A DNA stretch of 36,293 nucleotides from Chitinophagaceae bacterium (GTDB lineage: Bacteria > Bacteroidota > Bacteroidia > Chitinophagales > Chitinophagaceae), in assembly GCA_947458625.1 (NCBI GenBank), contig CANGZN010000004.1:1-36293 (forward strand). Direction: 5' to 3'. The position numbers and the translations under genes were made by a program. Each line of letters begins with the position of its first letter. The stretch's first letter is position 1. Under the pieces are notes generated by a model. The model made no database searches. It was not told the origin of the DNA and worked only from the letters and a program-made list of their open reading frames with translations. Positions 1,906 through 12,933 of the stretch are shown in pieces.

Positions 1906-3063
1906 CTATTCCGCCCAACTCATCACATAGTCTTGATTCTCAATTGCTAAAGCCTGCTTGGTGAGTTTCAAGGGCCGGAAAGTGTCGACCATAACCGCCA
2001 ATTCCTTGGTCTCCTTGGCGCCGATGCTCTTTTCAACGGCACCCGGATGGGGGCCATGCGGAATACCTGCGGGATGCAAGGTGATCATCCCCTTTGTGAC
2101 ATGTTTGCGGCTCATGAATTCACCATCCACATAGTACAATACTTCATCACTATCGATATTGCTGTGGTTGTAAGGAGCCGGTATACCCTGCGGATGGTAA
2201 TCATACATCCGTGGAACGAATGAACAAACCACGAACGCCTCGGCTTCAAATGTTTGGTGGATCGGCGGCGGCATGTGTACGCGTCCGGTGATCGGCTCGA
2301 AGTCGTGGATAGAGAAAATATACGGATAGCAACAACCATCCCACCCGATCACATCGAAAGGATGCGTACCGTAGTGAAGTCCGTACAACATACCCTGCTT
2401 TTTGGCACGGATCAAAAAATCACCTGCCTGGTCGAAGGTCTCGAGGTCTTGCGGGGGACGGATATCCCGCTCACAATAGGGCGAATGCTCCATCAACTGC
2501 CCATACTTACTCAAATACCGCTTTGGAAAGCGCAACGGAGAAAAGGATTCCACGATGAATAACCGATTATCGGGGGTATCGAAATGGATCTGGTAAATCG
2601 TGCCGCGAGGTAAGACAATATAATCGCCATAAGAGAATGGCAGTTGTCCATACGGCGTACAAACTTTACCACTTCCTTCGTGCACGAATATCATTTCATC
2701 TGCATCGGTATTCTTGAAAAAATAATCGGTGGTGCTTTTGCGAGGAGCCGCCAATACAATGTGACAATCATTATTGACTAGAACCGGTATCCGACTCTCC
2801 AAATAATCATCAGCCGGCGGCACCTTGAATCCTTCCAGACTCCGGTGTTTCAGCATTTTTTCCTCTGCCACCTGAGGTGATACATCCACCTGCGGCTCTG
2901 TCTTGATGATCTGCGTGGGTGGATGGCAATGGTATAGAAGTGAATAATCGTTGCTGAATCCCTCCGTGGAGAACAATTGCTCGCTGTACAATCCGCCGTC
3001 AGGCTTACGAAACTGCGTGTGACGCTTGTGTGGGATCTGGCCGAGTGTATGGTAATGAGGCAT
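1906..3063 (-). CDS. hmgA: Homogentisate 1,2-dioxygenase family protein
   Basis: [45 protein letters not shown]...; cupin-like [30 protein letters not shown]. Confidence 0.88.
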
Positions 3064-3078
3064 GTGGGAACGTTGGAC

Positions 3079-3152
3079 GATGAAAGATGAAGGATGAAAT
3101 GGTAGAATGTAGAAAGTGTAAGGTTTAAACGTTCTACTTTCTACCTTCTACA
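3079..3152. repeat. Degenerate period-7 tandem array with inverted halves around a GTTTAAAC palindrome
   Basis: GATGAAA GATGAAG GATGAAA t GGTAGAA TGTAGAA AGTGTAA ggtttaaacg TTCTACT TTCTACC TTCTACA. Confidence 0.75.
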
Positions 3153-3579
3153 TTCCGGGGAACCAAGGTCTGGCGATCGCAGCATCGCGGAAAGGCCAGG
3201 GAACGGCTGCAAGGATAAGCACCAGAGCGATCAGTAATAAGGTTTTGACGGACCGGTAATTCAGATCTTTTGCCTTCCGACGTGCTAGGGTGATCAACAC
3301 CACGCTAGTGATCATCATCACCGGATGCTCCACGAGGTAGAATCGATAAAATCCGTCCTTCATCACCGAAGTTCCTTCAGGCACATTCATCCATCCATAG
3401 CGACCGGCGATGGTCTGATACAAGCCGATCAACAGCATGACATGTGACGTGATCATCAACCAGAGTCCGGTTGATTTGATCTTCTCGCTTTTTACTAACG
3501 AATAGTAAATGCTAACCAGTAGCAATATTAAAATAACCCAACGCAGTAGGCTGTGTAAATGTATAAGTCCGGTAGTCAT
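3148..3579 (-). CDS. Small four-helix-type membrane protein (cytochrome b561-like)
   Basis: MTTGLIHLHSLLRWVILILLLVSIYYSL... several hydrophobic helices; early His pair; ATG at 3577-3579 preferred. Confidence 0.6.
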   Translation of the reverse strand: MTTGLIHLHSLLRWVILILLLVSIYYSLVKSEKIKSTGLWLMITSHVMLLIGLYQTIAGRYGWMNVPEGTSVMKDGFYRFYLVEHPVMMITSVVLITLARRKAKDLNYRSVKTLLLIALVLILAAVPWPFRDAAIARPWFPGM

Positions 3580-3601
3580 ATGGCGTGATTTTGGTGTATC
3601 A

Positions 3602-3609
3602 CAAATATA
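3602..3609 (-). promoter_or_regulatory. Putative -7 element TATATTTG
   Basis: CAAATATA on +; TTG about 19 nt further upstream on the minus strand; 22 nt before the ATG of the 3148-3579 gene. Confidence 0.5.
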
Positions 3610-3635
3610 CAACTACAGCCTACAGACCCAATTAA

Positions 3636-4940
3636 CTAGAAGGACATGTTCATGTTCCGCATGTCGCCCTCAAAACGGGGATTCACGAAATTATTCAACC
3701 TGGACCCAAACCGATAATTGATCCCAAAACTGGTGAAAAAATTATAGCCGGAGGCCAACTGTCGCTGCCTGGCCAAAACTTCTTGCGGAGAGGCACTCCC
3801 CTTGGGCAGAAAGATCTGGTCGCGGGTAACTCCTCCAAAAGCAGACACAAAAAAGGAAAGTCCGCCCGTGATCCGAACATTGGTAAAGGCATTGATGCCC
3901 AAATTGAAAAAATCCCAATCATTCAAAAAATGTTCACCGAATAGGCCGATTGACAGATTGCCCCATTTCTGATTTTTGGTCATATTCACCCGAACCCCCT
4001 GTGTGTATACCCGCTCTTGCAGCTTGTCATAGATCGTAGAATCGTAATAACGTTGATCCTTTGCTGCCAGTACATAGGATATAGTGAACAGATTATTGTT
4101 CACCTCTTTGTACGGGTAAATATTATATTCTATGCCCAAACTGACCTCTGATCGTAACTTATAGTTGGAAAAAGTACTTTGACTGAACCGAGCATCATAA
4201 GCCCAACTCCAACGATCATTGATGCTTCCGACTAAGTAGTGATACAACGAGAGGTCATGATTGTTAACCGTAAATTCCACTTCCCCGGTCCCATCGTCAT
4301 AGGTGAAAGAGGACTGGTTACGGGATGCGTTCAGGAATAACCCATACTTCCACTTCTCTGTCGTTCGATTCGCTGAAAGATTGGAGCTGTACCGATTACT
4401 CCGATACACAGCATCCGCATTGATGTTCCCGTTCGCACCTACCCGAAATATCCAATAATCCCAGGGGTCTTTGGTTTCTTTCGTTGTATCCGGCCTCCCG
4501 GATGAATCTGTTCGCTCTTTGAATTCAATAGAAAGATTCCCCGGATCCTTCGTGCGAACGACATAAGCAACCAGGCCCGACTTCAGATAAAACAGTAACG
4601 ATTCGCGAATTTCTACATCCGTGGCATTTCTGTCTACATCAAACGACAATGTATCCATCATACCCGCAAAGGCATGCTGCCCGTAATAAATAAGTTGATA
4701 ATGACTGCCTCCACTACCGGTAGGCAAACTCGTGATTAACACGTGTACATCCGCTGCCTGATTGTCCAATGTAAAATCGACACCCTTTATCTCCGTGCGG
4801 ATATAAGTCATATCGCACCAGGTATTCGAACAATCAACAAAAATGGAAAGCCTGCCAGGCAAGTTTCTACCGGACTGTGAATTTGCAGAATAACCTAAGA
4901 ACAAAGGAATAAAAGCGAAAAGCAGGAAGGTCTTGGACAT
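3636..4940 (-). CDS. Uncharacterised outer-membrane protein: N-terminal domain plus predicted C-terminal beta-barrel
   Basis: Signal peptide MSKTFLLFAFIPLFLGYSANSQ; conserved-looking DCSNTWCDMTYIRTEI and QAADVHVLITSLPTGSGGSHYQLIYYG; C-terminal half rich in alternating aromatic beta strands. Confidence 0.7.
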   Translation of the reverse strand: MSKTFLLFAFIPLFLGYSANSQSGRNLPGRLSIFVDCSNTWCDMTYIRTEIKGVDFTLDNQAADVHVLITSLPTGSGGSHYQLIYYGQHAFAGMMDTLSFDVDRNATDVEIRESLLFYLKSGLVAYVVRTKDPGNLSIEFKERTDSSGRPDTTKETKDPWDYWIFRVGANGNINADAVYRSNRYSSNLSANRTTEKWKYGLFLNASRNQSSFTYDDGTGEVEFTVNNHDLSLYHYLVGSINDRWSWAYDARFSQSTFSNYKLRSEVSLGIEYNIYPYKEVNNNLFTISYVLAAKDQRYYDSTIYDKLQERVYTQGVRVNMTKNQKWGNLSIGLFGEHFLNDWDFFNLGINAFTNVRITGGLSFFVSAFGGVTRDQIFLPKGSASPQEVLARQRQLASGYNFFTSFGINYRFGSRLNNFVNPRFEGDMRNMNMSF

Positions 4941-5002
4941 TGGTTTGGTTTGAGTCGCGCAAAGATTGTCAAACATATCGACCCGAGCATTCCCAATTTG
5001 TT

Positions 5003-5072
5003 AAACACTTCCCAATCTAAACTCTCATCCCTCATCTCTAAACTCCCACCCTTCACCCTTCACCCTTCATCT
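5003..5072. repeat. Degenerate period-7 tandem array (GGGTGAA/AGATGAR/AGTTTAG heptamers on minus strand)
   Basis: Minus strand: AGATGAA GGGTGAA GGGTGAA GGGTGGG AGTTTAG AGATGAG GGATGAG AGTTTAG ATTGGGA AGTGTTT. Confidence 0.75.
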
Positions 5073-5076
5073 CCCC

Positions 5077-6162
5077 CTACTCCACCCAATCCGCTACAAA
5101 CACATTCGTATCCCGCGTGCCGCCGTTATTTCGGTTACTGCAGAATACGATTTTCTTACCGTTGGGTGAAAACATTGGAAACGCATCGAAGCCTTTATCA
5201 CGAGAAACCTTTGTGAGATTCGATCCGTCACCATTCATCGTGTATAAATTGAACGGGAAACCGCGCTTGTACTCGTGATTGCTGGCAAAAATGATCCGCT
5301 TACTGTCGGGCATAAACGATGGAGCCCAATTGGCCTGACCCAGTGTCGTGATCTGTTTGGCATTGGATCCGTCGGCATTGGCTACCCAAACCTCCATATT
5401 GGTTGGCGCCACCAAATGCTCGGCCAGTAGGTCTTTGTACTCTTTTACTTCGGCCTCCGATTTCGGACGGGAAGCCCTCCAAATGATCTTCTTGCCATCC
5501 GGCGAAAACCAGGCACCTCCATCATATCCTAAATCATAGGTGATCCGCTTCTCCGAACCTGTTTCCAGATTCATGATGTACAATTCGATATCACCGTCTT
5601 TATCACTGGTATAAAGCATCAACTTGCCATCGGGAGAAAGCGTAGCCTCGGCATCATATCCGGGTGCATTCGTCAGTTGCTTGACAATATTTCCTTTCAG
5701 GTCGGACATGAAAATATCGAAAGACGGATACAAAGGCCAGATATACTTGTTGCCGTATTTGGCACGGTCTGGTACCGGCGGGCAATCCCCCGAACCCAAA
5801 TGCGTGGAAGCGTAGATGATATGCTTGTCGTCTTTCGTAAAAAAAGCGCAAGTGGTTCGACCCTTACCGGTGCTTACCAACTGATAAGAAAAGGGACGAT
5901 TCTTCTTCTTGGGCAATTTGCCATAATAGATCTGATCACAAGGGATGCCATCCTTCATGCTGGTACGTTGAAATACCAGGGATTTTCCATCATAACTCCA
6001 ATAAGCTTCCGCATTATCACCCCCGAAGGTGAGCTGACGCATGTTCCGAAAATGCTTCTCCTCAGGAAGTCGAAGTGTATCGTCGGACTGAGCCGATACC
6101 ATTAAAGTGGCGCTTACCAGTAAGCAGGTGGCAATGAAAACAGCTGATTGTCGTTTAAACAT
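5077..6162 (-). CDS. TolB-like/PD40 beta-propeller secreted protein
   Basis: Signal peptide MFKRQSAVFIATCLLVSATLMVSAQ; repeated LSPDGKLMLYTSDKDGDIELYIMNL, FSPDGKKIIWRASR, FSPNGKKIVFCSNR. Confidence 0.85.
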   Translation of the reverse strand: MFKRQSAVFIATCLLVSATLMVSAQSDDTLRLPEEKHFRNMRQLTFGGDNAEAYWSYDGKSLVFQRTSMKDGIPCDQIYYGKLPKKKNRPFSYQLVSTGKGRTTCAFFTKDDKHIIYASTHLGSGDCPPVPDRAKYGNKYIWPLYPSFDIFMSDLKGNIVKQLTNAPGYDAEATLSPDGKLMLYTSDKDGDIELYIMNLETGSEKRITYDLGYDGGAWFSPDGKKIIWRASRPKSEAEVKEYKDLLAEHLVAPTNMEVWVANADGSNAKQITTLGQANWAPSFMPDSKRIIFASNHEYKRGFPFNLYTMNGDGSNLTKVSRDKGFDAFPMFSPNGKKIVFCSNRNNGGTRDTNVFVADWVE

Positions 6163-6179
6163 ATATATGTCTTGTTCCG

Positions 6180-6187
6180 CAAAATTA
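6180..6187 (-). promoter_or_regulatory. Putative -7 element TAATTTTG of the PD40 gene
   Basis: CAAAATTA on +; exact TAnnTTTG on minus strand upstream of ATG at 6160-6162. Confidence 0.5.
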
Positions 6188-6250
6188 ATCATCCACAACC
6201 GTATCGCCCCCCTCAAAGGGTAAACGGGAAGCAAACAGTATTTTTACAGC

Positions 6251-7237
6251 ATGCAGCGAATCGGCTTTTTGTTTATCCTCATTTGTGCGGCATTGGCCTG
6301 TAATAGTCCCCAGGCAGACTCCACCACTACCGAACTACTCGAACAGCCGCCTTTTCTTGAATGGACAGACCGAATTGAAAATGACCCCGAAAACGATTCC
6401 CTGTACTTCATACGCGGCAGACTACTGATGCAAGGCGGACATACAGCTGCCGCACGTACCGATTTTGAAAAAGCCTGGTCGATCAAGCCCGCCGCCCTTT
6501 TGGCAGAATATCTCGCCAACACACTTGAATCACCACAAGCGCAATGCTCCTTCTTAAAACAAGCGACGAATCAATTCCCCGGTGATTTCCCATTAGAATA
6601 TATGTTGGCCGAGTCTTTTCAATCGATGGACTCAACGGATGCAGCCCTCTACATCACACAGAAATGGCTACAATCAGGCATTGAGATCCCGGAATTCATC
6701 TTACTACACGCATCCCTATTGGAAAAAAAAGGGAACAAAACCGAATCGCTCTACCTACTCGAAACACTTTACGAAAATGAGCCGAACTATCGCCCCGTAA
6801 AGGAGATACTTGCCTTACGATATGCCGGCAGCGGTAATAAAAAAGCGATCCTTCTGTGCGAGGAAATATCCCAACTTGATAGCACTGGGCACGACCCATT
6901 ACCCAATTATTACCTCGGGATCTACTACGGTACACAAAAAAATTACACGTCGGCGATCCAAGCTTTCGATAAAGCCATCCAATCAGATTATAATTTCATC
7001 GAGGCCTATATTGAAAAAGCCTCCCTGCTCTATGAACAAAAAGTATACAAAGGATCGCTGGAGGTGTTGAGTAAAGCCCTTGCCGTGGCCCCCGATCATG
7101 CATCCGTTTATTACTGGACGGCTAAATGTCAACAGGCACTGGGGGACAAGGAATCGGCCCGATTCAATTACCTGAAGGCATACGGACTGGATAAAAGTTT
7201 CATTGAGGCGAAAGCCGCTGCCGATCAACTGAAATAA
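6251..7237 (+). CDS. TPR-repeat lipoprotein
   Basis: Lipobox AALAC in MQRIGFLFILICAALACNSPQ; multiple TPR-like helices (e.g. NYTSAIQAFDKAIQSDYNFIEAYIEKASLLYEQ). Confidence 0.85.
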   Translation: MQRIGFLFILICAALACNSPQADSTTTELLEQPPFLEWTDRIENDPENDSLYFIRGRLLMQGGHTAAARTDFEKAWSIKPAALLAEYLANTLESPQAQCSFLKQATNQFPGDFPLEYMLAESFQSMDSTDAALYITQKWLQSGIEIPEFILLHASLLEKKGNKTESLYLLETLYENEPNYRPVKEILALRYAGSGNKKAILLCEEISQLDSTGHDPLPNYYLGIYYGTQKNYTSAIQAFDKAIQSDYNFIEAYIEKASLLYEQKVYKGSLEVLSKALAVAPDHASVYYWTAKCQQALGDKESARFNYLKAYGLDKSFIEAKAAADQLK

Positions 7238-7959: not shown

Positions 7960-10488
7960 TTGCGGCGCATACTTTTAATAATCCTTTTTCACGTTTGCGG
8001 ATCATACGCATTCACCCAGTCGCGAAACGCACAGATCACCGGCCACGTCGTAGATGAGGAAGAAAGGCCCCTTTCCGGCGTGTCGGTGCAACTACTGGGA
8101 AGAAATCTCAGCGCCACAACCAACGACAGTGGTGCATTCAAGATCACGGTGCCCGCCGATCGCGCCATCGCCCTTCGCTTTTCATTTGTGGGCTATAAGT
8201 CCGAACAACGAAATTTTTTGCTGCAACCAAATGAAGCTGAATTCGTCCGAATCCGACTCCTAGTCAACAAAGACACGCTTCGTGAAGTGATCATCGAAGA
8301 TGATCGGGACCGACGAGAAACCGGACTCATCAAACCCAATCCCAAATCTGTTCTCAACCTGCCGAGTGTAGTTACCGGTGTGGAAAGCCTGATCAAGATC
8401 TTTGTCGGATCCAACAATGAACTCACGTCCAACTATTCCGTACGCGGGGGCAGTTACGAGGAGAATCTGATCTATGTAAATGACTTTGAAATCTTCCGCC
8501 CCTACTTGGTTCGCAGCGGACAACAAGAGGGACTCAGCTTCATACATCCCGAAATGGTGCGCAACCTCAGCTTCTACAACGGAGGATTCAGTGCTCGGTA
8601 CGGAGACAAACTAAGCAGTGTATTAGATATCCAATACAGAACGCCGAAGCCGGATCTGCGAAAAAATAAGCGTACCGGTGGATCAGCGTATATCAGCCTG
8701 TTGGAACAAGGATTGATGCTGGAAGGCGTTGACCGAAAAAATAAATTCGCATATCTGATCGGTGCCCGAAACCGAAACAATCAAAATGTTCTCAGTCGAC
8801 AAGACACGCGCGGTAATTATGTTCCTAGTTCGCGAGATGTACAAGGACTTATCTCCTACACATTCAACTCAAAATGGAGAACTGAATTGCTTGGCAACTT
8901 TTCCTCCTCTCGTTTTCAACTGACACCGCAATCCAGTCAACTGACGGCCTCTGTATTTTCACCTCTCTTCTCTGCCAACATTGGGGTAGATATTGCGTTC
9001 GCCGGACGGGAGAATGATTCGTATCGAACCAATATGCTCGGATGGTCATTGATCCACCAGCCATCTCGCAAACTTCAATTGAAATGGATGTTATCTCAAT
9101 TTGCAAACCAAGAGGCTGAACGCATCGACATCCAGGGCGCCTATCTGTTCGGAGAGCGCGATTTTGACAGACGTAACAGCACCTACGGGCTGATCATCAA
9201 TCCGCTGGGCGCCGGAATTTTCCATACTTGGGCACGCAACGAACTCGATCTTACCAACCTAAATGCCGGACATAAAGGCTCCTTGGAACTGAATCGACAC
9301 CGGATCCTCTGGGGTGCGAACGTAGAACGTACGAAGATCGATGACAAGCTATTTGAGTGGGAGTTCCAGGACTCCGCCGGCTATTCAGTCCCCTATCAAC
9401 CGAATCTCCTTCAATTAAATAAACTACTGATCGGAGATGCTAAACTTCGAGTGAACCGATTTTACGGGTACATACAGGATCAACTGGCCTGGAACAGTAA
9501 AAAGGGGAATACCACCCTACAAGTAGGAGTTCGATGGAATTACAACAACCTGAATAAACAACTGATCCTGTCTCCTCGTATGCAGGCGAGTCACAAACCG
9601 GCAGGAAAAAAAGACCTGCTATACCGGTTGGCAGTAGGCGCCTACCATCAACCTCCATTCTACCGGGAACTTCGTCGTTACGATGGTACCGTGAATACCG
9701 AACTGAAAGCACAACAGAGCTGGCAAGCCGTGGCGGGTGTCGACTACCAGTTTGTCGGACTAGCCGGCAGACCTATGCGCCTAACCACGGAAGCATATTA
9801 CAAACAACTCCGAGATGTAGTGCCGTATGATGTAGACAATGTCCGACTGCGATATTTCGGTGAAAACATGGCCAACGCCTACGCGACGGGATTGGAGATG
9901 AGGTTGCATGGAGAATTGGTACCTGACGCAGAAAGCTGGTTCAGCCTGGGCGTCATGCAAACCAAAGAGGACCTGCTCAACGATCATTATTACCGCTACA
10001 AAAATGCAGCAGGCGAATTCATTAATGCAACTAGTTTGGACCCCGTTGTGACGGACAGTATGCGATTCGATGTTGGATGGGTCCGCAGGCCGAACGATCG
10101 ACGTATTACGATGGGATTATTCTTTCAAGACTATCTATCCACCAACCGTAACATCCAAGTATTTCTCAACCTGTTGTATGGAAGCAATATGCCCTATAAT
10201 ATTCCAGGATCGGTGCGCTTCCGAAATGCCGCTGTGATCGACCCCTACATCCGTTGCGACCTGGGGTTCAGCGCGATCTTGTGGGATGAAGCTACCTCAA
10301 CCAAAAGAAGCCATTCTCCACTGCGGAACTTTTCACAAGTACGCTTAAGTCTGGAACTTTTTAATGTTGTTGACCGGGCCAATACCATCTCCTATTTGTT
10401 GGTCAAAGATTTTTCGAATACTACGTACCTATTGCCGAACCGACTTACCCCTCGATTGATCAACCTGAAATTGATGGCCCGCTGGTGA
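7960..10488 (+). CDS. TonB-dependent receptor with N-terminal CarboxypepD_reg-like domain
   Basis: Signal-like RRILLIILFHVCGSYAFTQ; ITGHVVDEEERPLSGVSVQLLG; plug YSVRGGSYEENLIYVNDFEIFRP; GGFSARYGDKLSSVLDIQYR. Track start 7906 and my start 7960 are both TTG codons. Confidence 0.88.
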   Translation: MRRILLIILFHVCGSYAFTQSRNAQITGHVVDEEERPLSGVSVQLLGRNLSATTNDSGAFKITVPADRAIALRFSFVGYKSEQRNFLLQPNEAEFVRIRLLVNKDTLREVIIEDDRDRRETGLIKPNPKSVLNLPSVVTGVESLIKIFVGSNNELTSNYSVRGGSYEENLIYVNDFEIFRPYLVRSGQQEGLSFIHPEMVRNLSFYNGGFSARYGDKLSSVLDIQYRTPKPDLRKNKRTGGSAYISLLEQGLMLEGVDRKNKFAYLIGARNRNNQNVLSRQDTRGNYVPSSRDVQGLISYTFNSKWRTELLGNFSSSRFQLTPQSSQLTASVFSPLFSANIGVDIAFAGRENDSYRTNMLGWSLIHQPSRKLQLKWMLSQFANQEAERIDIQGAYLFGERDFDRRNSTYGLIINPLGAGIFHTWARNELDLTNLNAGHKGSLELNRHRILWGANVERTKIDDKLFEWEFQDSAGYSVPYQPNLLQLNKLLIGDAKLRVNRFYGYIQDQLAWNSKKGNTTLQVGVRWNYNNLNKQLILSPRMQASHKPAGKKDLLYRLAVGAYHQPPFYRELRRYDGTVNTELKAQQSWQAVAGVDYQFVGLAGRPMRLTTEAYYKQLRDVVPYDVDNVRLRYFGENMANAYATGLEMRLHGELVPDAESWFSLGVMQTKEDLLNDHYYRYKNAAGEFINATSLDPVVTDSMRFDVGWVRRPNDRRITMGLFFQDYLSTNRNIQVFLNLLYGSNMPYNIPGSVRFRNAAVIDPYIRCDLGFSAILWDEATSTKRSHSPLRNFSQVRLSLELFNVVDRANTISYLLVKDFSNTTYLLPNRLTPRLINLKLMARW

Positions 10489-12933
10489 TCAGCGCCAGCG
10501 ATTTCGGAATCGATCCCAACTCGTCAGCCCGATCTTGAATTGAACAGGGTTCTTAAACTGATTGGCAACAGAACCCACCACGTACACACCCAACTTGAAT
10601 CGAGTCAGCGGATTGAACGGCCACTTGAAAATCCGCTCGATTCCAGCGAACAACTCCGCATATTGCAAGTCTCTTTCGGGAGCAATTAAAAAACCGCCCC
10701 CTGCAACCTCCTGAATTCGAAGCTTCTTCAGAAAAGGGATCTTATTGACCAATGCGCCATTGAATTCATGTAATAGATTGCCTTGATAATACCGGTCAAA
10801 TACCGGAAAAGTGGAATCGAGCGCCTGAAACATCCGCTGTGGATTGAGAAAGAACAACGGATCTCCCTGACGCATGAATCGGTAATCGATTACCTGCAGG
10901 TTTCGTTTGTTGGTGAATTCGCCGGACTTAATGGTATACGAAGTATTCCCGGGCGTACCCCACTGAATGGTTTGCAGCAATCCGAATTCCCAATAATCAA
11001 AATCAATTGCGCTGTTGATGAATCCCGGAACCCCCTTCCTCCAATGCAAATAAAAAGTTGGGTATTTCGAACCTAGATAGATCTTTTCCCTGGGCTCACG
11101 CAAATAACGAAGCTTGGGTGTATAGAACAACTTGACCTCATTGTACAAGGCATTGTAAGGCTGAAAATCAACGGCCGGTTCATTGGGAATACCAAAAATA
11201 GAATCCGCATTGTTACTAACCTTGTAATTCGAAACCGATCTTCTCCAGGCATATTCTACCTGATTCATCAGGGTCAGTCCATTGAATATCTCTATCTCAT
11301 GATTCACCTCTAACCCGGTATTGAGATAAATGTTACTACGCTTGAGCACATTCACCCAGGCATCTCCCGCATAAATGAATTCAAAATTGCGACCGGCTTT
11401 TATACCAAATTGCCCTTTCCGAAACGGATCATATTTGCGCTGCAGGGAGAGCGCACCATTTACATCCTGGTTGCGAAATCCGTAGCTCAGATCTGCTTCG
11501 AGATTTAAATTTTTTCGGCTGGGATAGGTCTTACGATAGGCACCGGCAAAACGAATCCGAGTGCCCCCGAAGGAAATGGGCTGAATCAAGGACGTGATCG
11601 GTGGCAGGATCCAACTACGCTCCTTTCGGTGGTCATTGAAGATCTGTCCGAAGATCAGCATCTTAGACCACGTGATCCGGTTCAATACACGATCGACAGA
11701 ATCCAAATACGCATCGCTTTGGCGAATTTTCAGCAGACTGTCTTGGTACCATTGATAACGCTGTTGCTGTACCGAAAGCGGTTCGCTTCGCACGGCTGAC
11801 CAAAACGCACTGTCTTTCTCATAGGCCTGCTGATCGGTTCGACTGACCTCGTCTCCAAAATATTTTCGAGAATAAATCTGACCAGGTTTTTGATCGGAGT
11901 ACATGGCCAGCGTCTCCCCATATCTTTTTCCACCCTTTACCTTGGTCTCATATCGAAAGGTTTGCTTACTGAGTATTGGCAATGTGTCACCTAACCGATC
12001 GTATTGCTGCTCTACCTCGAACCGATCGTACTCCGGAACATGCGCTTTGGGCAATTCAAAACGGGCACTGATGAGTTCAAAGGTACTGTCGCGAATGACA
12101 AGCTCCCCTTCGATGGTAGCGTTACTGAGTGCACGGGGGCGAACGGATATCGTAAAGACCCTGGGCCGCTGCGATCGATCGATGCGAAGGGTCTTGAACC
12201 GATAGGCTAACAATCCGCTGTGGCTGATAGGCGATACAAATGGGATCTGTGAAAGAGCCGGCGCCTGAATGAGATTCTCAAACAAATTGAAGCGACCATC
12301 GGTAGTAGTCAGGTAAAACAGACCTTCTCGGCTTCCCTGTTGCTTAACCGCCAACCTTTCTTCCTTGATCCTGGCTCCTTCCCCCTGATCCACTTTGAGA
12401 AATACCTCCGTGAGTGATAAACCTGCAAAGGGATCCGGCTTCGCAATGGAATCGGATTTTTTTTGCAGGATCTTAGACGAGTCGATTTCCTGCGCACGGA
12501 TGTAGACTTGCTGAGAGAAATTAAACAGGGGGAGGGCTCGCATTTCTTTTTCGCGGATCAGGTGTCGGACCAACTCCTCTGCGCGGTCGCGGGGTTTGAC
12601 TCGAACCACCACTTCTCCCAAATTATCCGGCTCACTCAACGTTAGTGGAACCGTGATTTGCACCGGTTTATCGTGAACAAAAAAGGGGATCAACGCCGTC
12701 TTGTAACCGATCAAACTCACCACCAGATCATAGCGCCCCCGCTCCAGCATGAACTCAAAACTTCCATCGTCCTTTGCGAGGCGACCGATCTGCAGGGATT
12801 TGATCTTGACACTGGCCAGCGGCAGTCCCTCCCCACGGGCATCTACCACTTTTCCACTCACCCGATAATTCTGCGCCAGTATCGGCCCCATTAGAAATAA
12901 CAGCGATATGAGTAGATGAATTCTTGATGTCAT
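10489..12933 (-). CDS. DUF5686-like outer-membrane protein with CarboxypepD_reg-like domain
   Basis: MTSRIHLLISLLFLMGPILAQNYRVSGKVVDARGEGLPLASVKIK... followed by a long beta-rich barrel; start moved to ATG at 12931-12933 at the signal peptide. Confidence 0.78.
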   Translation of the reverse strand: MTSRIHLLISLLFLMGPILAQNYRVSGKVVDARGEGLPLASVKIKSLQIGRLAKDDGSFEFMLERGRYDLVVSLIGYKTALIPFFVHDKPVQITVPLTLSEPDNLGEVVVRVKPRDRAEELVRHLIREKEMRALPLFNFSQQVYIRAQEIDSSKILQKKSDSIAKPDPFAGLSLTEVFLKVDQGEGARIKEERLAVKQQGSREGLFYLTTTDGRFNLFENLIQAPALSQIPFVSPISHSGLLAYRFKTLRIDRSQRPRVFTISVRPRALSNATIEGELVIRDSTFELISARFELPKAHVPEYDRFEVEQQYDRLGDTLPILSKQTFRYETKVKGGKRYGETLAMYSDQKPGQIYSRKYFGDEVSRTDQQAYEKDSAFWSAVRSEPLSVQQQRYQWYQDSLLKIRQSDAYLDSVDRVLNRITWSKMLIFGQIFNDHRKERSWILPPITSLIQPISFGGTRIRFAGAYRKTYPSRKNLNLEADLSYGFRNQDVNGALSLQRKYDPFRKGQFGIKAGRNFEFIYAGDAWVNVLKRSNIYLNTGLEVNHEIEIFNGLTLMNQVEYAWRRSVSNYKVSNNADSIFGIPNEPAVDFQPYNALYNEVKLFYTPKLRYLREPREKIYLGSKYPTFYLHWRKGVPGFINSAIDFDYWEFGLLQTIQWGTPGNTSYTIKSGEFTNKRNLQVIDYRFMRQGDPLFFLNPQRMFQALDSTFPVFDRYYQGNLLHEFNGALVNKIPFLKKLRIQEVAGGGFLIAPERDLQYAELFAGIERIFKWPFNPLTRFKLGVYVVGSVANQFKNPVQFKIGLTSWDRFRNRWR

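Follow-up and report, generated by a model that had tools for sequence, protein, structure and literature searches.

The DNA analysed here, called the window, is a stretch of 36,293 nt at the start of contig CANGZN010000004.1 of a Chitinophagaceae bacterium (GCA_947458625.1). On its minus strand a gene for a PD40 beta-propeller protein is followed directly by a tandem array of degenerate 7-nt units. The assignment of this gene to PD40, made earlier from the letters alone, proved right. The features of the locus are as follows.

5077 to 6234, minus strand: PD40 beta-propeller gene, upstream of the array (PF07676, E 2e-40)
5077 to 5079, minus strand: TAG stop codon ending the PD40 gene, with 4 nt between it and the array (sequence)
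5067 to 5069, minus strand: TGA at +8 after the PD40 stop, closing frame 1 (sequence)
5060 to 5062, minus strand: TGA at +15, closing frame 2 (sequence)
5053 to 5055, minus strand: TGA at +22, closing frame 0, the PD40 gene's own frame (sequence)
5003 to 5072, minus strand: one-armed degenerate heptad array (sequence and lag scans)
5014 to 5071, minus strand: core of the array, the part with statistical support (lag-7 log-odds score 24.7)
5001 to 5092, plus strand: G-free, C-rich run of 92 nt, complement of the array (the next longest in the window is 34 nt)
3055 to 3155, minus strand: sister heptad array, two-armed, with GTAGAAG and GATGAAR units (score 33, fold z=-3.95)

Read on the minus strand, the TAG of the PD40 gene is followed by GGGG (5076-5073) and then by heptads from 5072 downwards. 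The start of the array 4 nt after the stop and the heptads themselves were confirmed as the preliminary description had given them. Eight units are clear (AGATGAA GGGTGAA GGGTGAA GGGTGGG AGTTTAG AGATGAG GGATGAG AGTTTAG). The last two of the ten proposed heptamers (ATTGGGA AGTGTTT) are weak. A lag-7 scan, which had been suggested as a check, gave 5014-5071 its score of 24.7; none of 200 dinucleotide shuffles of the window scored above 14.5, and when the lags 4 to 13 were scanned only lag 7 exceeded a score of 15 in the window. With the TGA triplets at +8, +15 and +22, stops are present in all three frames behind PD40. The sense strand of the array is C-free throughout, the 79-nt core of the G-free run on the plus strand contains 30 YC dinucleotides, and an antisense RNA of 5003-5072 would have the composition of a rut site, being long, C-rich and G-poor. 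No Rfam 15 match above the gathering score was found in the window. The ORF at 3636-4976 opens at 4976; a start at 4940, which gives a signal-peptide-like N-terminus by eye, is likelier and would make the gap behind PD40 about 136 nt long.

The array had been linked to the sister array within the same window. Both are real period-7 arrays, but their architecture differs, since 3055-3155 is a folding inverted repeat and 5003-5072 is one-armed. The sister array sits behind the TAG of the gene at 3148-3612, and relatives carry an array of other units at its site.

The occurrence of such arrays was then analysed in the source genome (G000; 1.76 Mb, 72% complete) and in its nearest relatives, which are Chitinophagaceae metagenome-assembled genomes (e.g. 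G014, G007 and G024). In G000 and G014, 17-25 arrays scoring at least 12 were found per 400 kb at lag 7, compared with 0-2 in the same samples at the lags 4, 5, 8, 10, 11 and 13 and with 0-1 lag-7 arrays in shuffled sequence. Lags divisible by 3 gave higher counts because of the coding sequence. Other Chitinophagaceae (80 loci, 1.38 Mb) contained 141 lag-7 and 80 lag-8 arrays. The small samples from further away showed 19 lag-7 arrays in 160 kb of other orders of the class and none in 126 kb of the phylum's other classes. The dispersed period-7 family that had been suspected from two instances is therefore real and larger than proposed, extending over G000, its relatives and many Bacteroidota. 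Period-8 arrays, often in inverted pairs, lie beside period-7 arrays in Chitinophagaceae loci such as L100, L101, L108 and L056, and locus L271 from another order contains very long degenerate lag-7 arrays at 10298-10688 (391 nt) and 6948-7172 (225 nt). The detailed statistics rest mostly on four related genomes, and every one of the 77 other loci was chosen around PD40. As many tests were run on the same data with thresholds set along the way, a single p value near 0.01 should not be relied on.

The position of the arrays was determined relative to genes called by a home-made, hexamer-trained finder, whose stops are more reliable than its starts. The arrays are intergenic and almost absent from predicted coding sequence. 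Their density per kb of gap was 1.92 in convergent, 0.86 in co-directional and 0.49 in divergent gaps of the four genomes, absolute values that are biased because the sampling, especially of G007, was partly around known arrays; in the 77 other loci the order was less clear (0.71, 0.78 and 0.51, respectively). Array edges bunch around stop codons, between about -10 and +7 nt. Where a co-directional gap measured 80 nt or more, 22 edges lay within 10 nt of a stop where 15.4 were expected (p=0.02), and 25 where 14.5 were expected in a second set (p=0.001); no enrichment was seen at gene starts in such gaps. TAG was the stop codon at 41 of the 97 array-bearing gene ends in the four genomes, compared with 15% of genes (p=1.5e-11), and the other loci showed a weak trend in the same direction (p=0.1). 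The location just behind stop codons, noted earlier for two arrays, is thus a general one. Two simple origins of this location were rejected. Insertion of arrays into coding sequence is ruled out by protein C-termini that are the same as those of array-free orthologues. Seeding of the array by the gene's own stop is disfavoured by the weak agreement between stop and unit triplet (p=0.046, small numbers) and by array-free orthologues, which often use another stop codon (again small numbers).

The arrays next to a stop show a clear strand rule. With the gene's own stop excluded, stop triplets were more frequent on the sense than on the antisense strand in 62:10 and 58:4 of these arrays. Within 35 nt the arrays closed 2.46 and 2.27 of the three frames, compared with 2.05 and 2.02 after column permutation and with 1.37 and 1.45 at array-free ends. 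It is the arrays at the stop that carry the strand bias; at a low threshold, single arms in co-directional gaps had no strand preference. Among purine-balanced arrays the sense:antisense bias was 22:4 in the other loci and 9:6 in the four genomes, so that in the latter purine and stop content are inseparable.

By pairing score, a partner arm of strong complementarity accompanies about 45% of the arrays in the array-rich genomes. In 49 of 52 two-armed gaps, which were not selected for pairing, the order was purine to pyrimidine. The arms of one locus paired better with each other than with the arms of other loci in G014 (p=0.0002) and G007 (p=0.011); in G000 the difference was not significant (p=0.28, n=11). 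For 5003-5072 no partner arm was found. Its RNA folds no better than shuffles (z=+1.12), whereas the sister array folds because of its two complementary arms. No terminator-like site and no U-tract was detected at 5003-5072 on either strand. A 3'-end or termination signal had been among the roles suggested for this array, and in the form of a hairpin these results do not support it. The array is not supported as an intrinsic terminator, and if it is transcribed, it would be an unstructured 3' UTR. Canonical hairpin-plus-U-tract terminators were present at 162 of 942 array-free gene ends (gaps of 50-250 nt) and at only 7 of 159 array-bearing ends, where 24.0 +/- 4.1 were expected after stratification by genome set, gap type and length. 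A few arrays lie between the stop and an intact terminator. Either the arrays replace terminators, or they leave no room for them.

Turnover was followed by comparing G000 with G014, whose flanks are about 93% identical. By eye, the same sites bear arrays in which units were replaced, added or lost, and one locus had apparently switched to period 8 in both arms. Of 17 array loci 14 differed in length, by 16 nt on average, compared with 5 of 29 array-free gaps (mean 0.2 nt), and 4 of the 14 length changes were exact multiples of 7. Within arrays, unit identity fell from 0.72 between neighbours to 0.44 at distance 7, a decay that local slippage-type duplication leaves behind. The units and lengths turn over far faster than other gaps while the period is kept, a slippage-like turnover that indirectly supports the earlier suggestion of slippage. 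One locus has a short GTTGAA...TTCAAC stem in G000 and a full two-armed array in G014; growth and shrinkage both fit. The 14-nt near-perfect tandem repeat (GGTCTTTCGTCTCT) at G000:C18:9501-9606 is absent at the orthologous place in G014.

The sites themselves pass from species to species by inheritance, although the letters in them are exchanged. A flank-based inheritance test was clear among close relatives. At about 77% flank identity, some 25 of 32 array sites bear an array in the other genome, compared with 3 of 41 array-free gaps, where the counts compare G000 or G014 with G007 in both directions and are not independent. The pool of all distant pairs gave p=8e-13; the pairs with G024 are few and singly not significant. 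Behind the PD40 stop, where G000 has the array at 5003-5072, the array of G014 has been rewritten, and that of G007 is shorter and made of different units (AGTTCAG type). Across the family, arrays at PD40 were counted in 15/80 versus 108/1170 (p=0.01), and this positional test was set aside because gap size explains most such conservation at intermediate distances. The preliminary description had set its proposal against arrays placed at random with respect to genes and conserved nowhere. The arrays found here are intergenic, enriched at 3' ends and inherited at orthologous sites.

The units follow a vocabulary of their own in each genome. In G000 it is RGDTGAR, and 5003-5072 is built of RGDTGAR and AGTTTAG. 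The RRRTGAR unit that had been read as common to both arrays of the window reflects a true heptad vocabulary of G000, but this is species-specific, and relatives use other heptads at the same sites. Among the units of other species are GTTTGTA, GATGAGT, GTGAGAC, ATCGATG and GGTTACC. The fixed and variable columns of the unit are identical at tens of loci, and in G000 and G014 GTTGA is the first unit in 53-60% of arrays, compared with 5-6% of internal units; this was not seen in G007. Between loci the unit order is near random, with longer shared words slightly in excess (p=0.013 and 0.017 in G014; p=0.017 for 4-unit words in G007). One vocabulary per genome is not explained by local slippage alone.

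With a probability of about one half, we regard 5003-5072 as one of a set of degenerate 7-nt arrays that extends through the genome and the class and whose behaviour is that of self-renewing microsatellites at the 3' ends of genes. Slippage would renew the array in place. A growing array that reaches or overwrites the stop codon would be tolerated solely if its units supply stops in every frame, as an array creeping over the stop would otherwise extend the protein. We infer a filter of this kind, which would keep the orientation whose units supply the stops. One stop per unit would close every frame as long as the period is not a multiple of 3, which holds for 7 and 8, and the mirror image of a stop-bearing arm would give the purine-to-pyrimidine polarity of the two-armed forms. 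What is observed is that arrays adjoining a stop codon have their stop triplets on the sense strand and close nearly all frames. Loops of 7-8 nt exceed the known repair range of MutS, which agrees with the presence of MutS; loss of MutS was rejected as the cause of the arrays, since MutS is present. The SbcD model stayed below its cut-off in all 10 genomes searched and is uninformative on an absence of SbcD as the cause. Several observations count against the microsatellite reading. The long persistence of sites in compact genomes and the depletion of terminators hint at selection for the presence of arrays. Independent slippage predicts neither the shared vocabulary nor the special first unit. 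Few of the length changes are exact multiples of 7, and many arrays begin behind the stop codon, where stops within the array would not be required.

Selection could act on the RNA. The arrays may be maintained 3'-end elements, in which purine arm, loop and pyrimidine arm form a hairpin, for convergent genes in the transcripts from either side, and end or protect transcripts that have no canonical terminator; arrays of the 5003-5072 type would then be half-elements. The frequency of strong partner arms, the almost uniform purine-to-pyrimidine order, the better pairing of own arms in G014 and G007, the scarcity of terminators at array ends and the inheritance of sites all speak for this. We nevertheless hold it to be unlikely, as 5003-5072 has no second arm and does not fold, no U-tract was seen after the arms, and some arrays are followed by an intact terminator, standing between it and the stop; the depletion may reflect nothing more than a lack of room, and the own-arm test was not significant in G000. 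Selection could instead act on translation, with the arrays serving as fail-safe stop cassettes after a missed stop or a frameshift, in which one stop per 7-nt unit would halt ribosomes in every frame within about 21 nt. The three TGA triplets behind PD40, the sense-strand stop triplets and the closed frames would be expected of such cassettes. At array-free gene ends, however, backup stops are hardly enriched (1.37 sense versus 1.28 antisense), a result that speaks for tolerance and against selection as a fail-safe, and the units of several species contain few or no stops, such as GGTTACC and CCATCCC, so positive selection of this kind appears very improbable.

One-armed arrays might also be directional Rho loading sites that end antisense transcription into the gene, their antisense RNA being predicted to be long, C-rich, G-free and unstructured with closely spaced YC dinucleotides. 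The G-free plus strand at 5001-5092 and its YC dinucleotides fit, and the G/C skew of arrays in the array-rich genomes (median 0.92, compared with 0.23 in other intergenic windows) points the same way; rho was found in G014 and G024 and in pieces in G007. This support is compositional, the skew is weaker in other species (median 0.60), some units are C/G-balanced, and rho was not found in G000, an incomplete genome. We give such a Rho function little credence. Nor do we expect much of a trans-acting factor or ectopic copying that homogenises units between loci, be it through sites for a binding protein or through inter-locus conversion. It would account for the fixed and variable columns that tens of loci have in common, the distinct first unit in G000 and G014, the species-specific vocabularies at the same sites and the slight excess of longer shared words; against it, unit order is otherwise near random between loci, and the Y1 transposase, the sole candidate protein searched for, is absent. 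There is also a broader proposal. The heptad and octad arrays might constitute an undescribed class of gene-end elements of the class Bacteroidia, in which an inherited site and a stop-bearing, purine-first architecture replace terminators, while the letters drift via genome-wide species vocabularies homogenised between loci by some process or binding factor. We consider this doubtful but worth stating.

Heptanucleotide repeats as such are an already known kind of repeat. Long simple sequence repeats of this unit length occur in prokaryotes, and slippage was proposed as their cause (Mrazek et al. 2007, as cited in PMC4679880). The arrays resemble them in having 7-nt tandem units longer than expected by chance and a length that varies between close relatives (14/17 versus 5/29), and 5003-5072 itself has changed units in G014. 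They differ in being degenerate, almost never coding, tied to stops with a strand rule, often inverted-armed and poor in canonical terminators. TAACTGA heptamers are found in Beggiatoaceae, cyanobacteria and some Bacteroidetes; the forward repeats carry stops in all three frames and must therefore lie at ORF ends, and indels between close strains occur in 7-nt steps (MacGregor 2015, PMC4679880). Both are intergenic 7-nt direct repeats with stops in three frames. The unit here is different (RGDTGAR and AGTTTAG), and no TAACTGA array was found in G000. The BOGUAY repeats mostly point towards a start codon just downstream, whereas the arrays here follow stops, and related heptamers are freely mixed here but rarely there. 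TAACTGA may be one vocabulary among many. A pattern of three consecutive TAACTGA units matched 29 times in G086, a genome from this class.

With REP/BIME elements and their RAYT proteins the arrays share the extragenic position behind stops and, in the two-armed forms, the palindromic structure; they are built of heptads, however, and 5003-5072 is not palindromic. Mobility of the REP/RAYT type was rejected, as no PF01797 (Y1_Tnp) match was obtained in G000 (72% complete), G007 or G014. Intrinsic terminators resemble the arrays in their position behind stops and, for the two-armed arrays, in the hairpin, but the arrays have no U-tract, 5003-5072 has no hairpin, and the two rarely co-occur. The STRR repeats of cyanobacteria are, by description, dispersed heptad tandem arrays as well. 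A literature search, which was incomplete so that absence does not prove novelty, retrieved no description of this array set in Chitinophagaceae; nor did it retrieve a strand rule coupled to stop anchoring, arms in inverted order, sites that are inherited though their letters change, or terminator depletion.

If the microsatellite reading is true, many gene 3' ends of these bacteria are bordered by DNA that changes its length far faster than the surroundings and yet is long-lived in place. A simple rule would then hold for short tandem repeats beside genes, namely stop triplets on the sense strand and a period not divisible by 3, and the arrays would offer a natural system for studying the dominance of 7- and 8-nt units. 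Function can be tested directly, given that each genome shares one vocabulary and that canonical terminators are scarce where arrays lie. In Bacteroidota, heptad arrays may also interfere with genome assembly and with the prediction of terminators.

A GC-rich palindrome, CCTGCCTGCCGGCAGGCAGG, was observed at L144:6418-6437, L195:5841-5860, L215:18657-18676 and L072:8796-8815. In several cases it is nested in a heptad array, and its presence varies between sister genomes.
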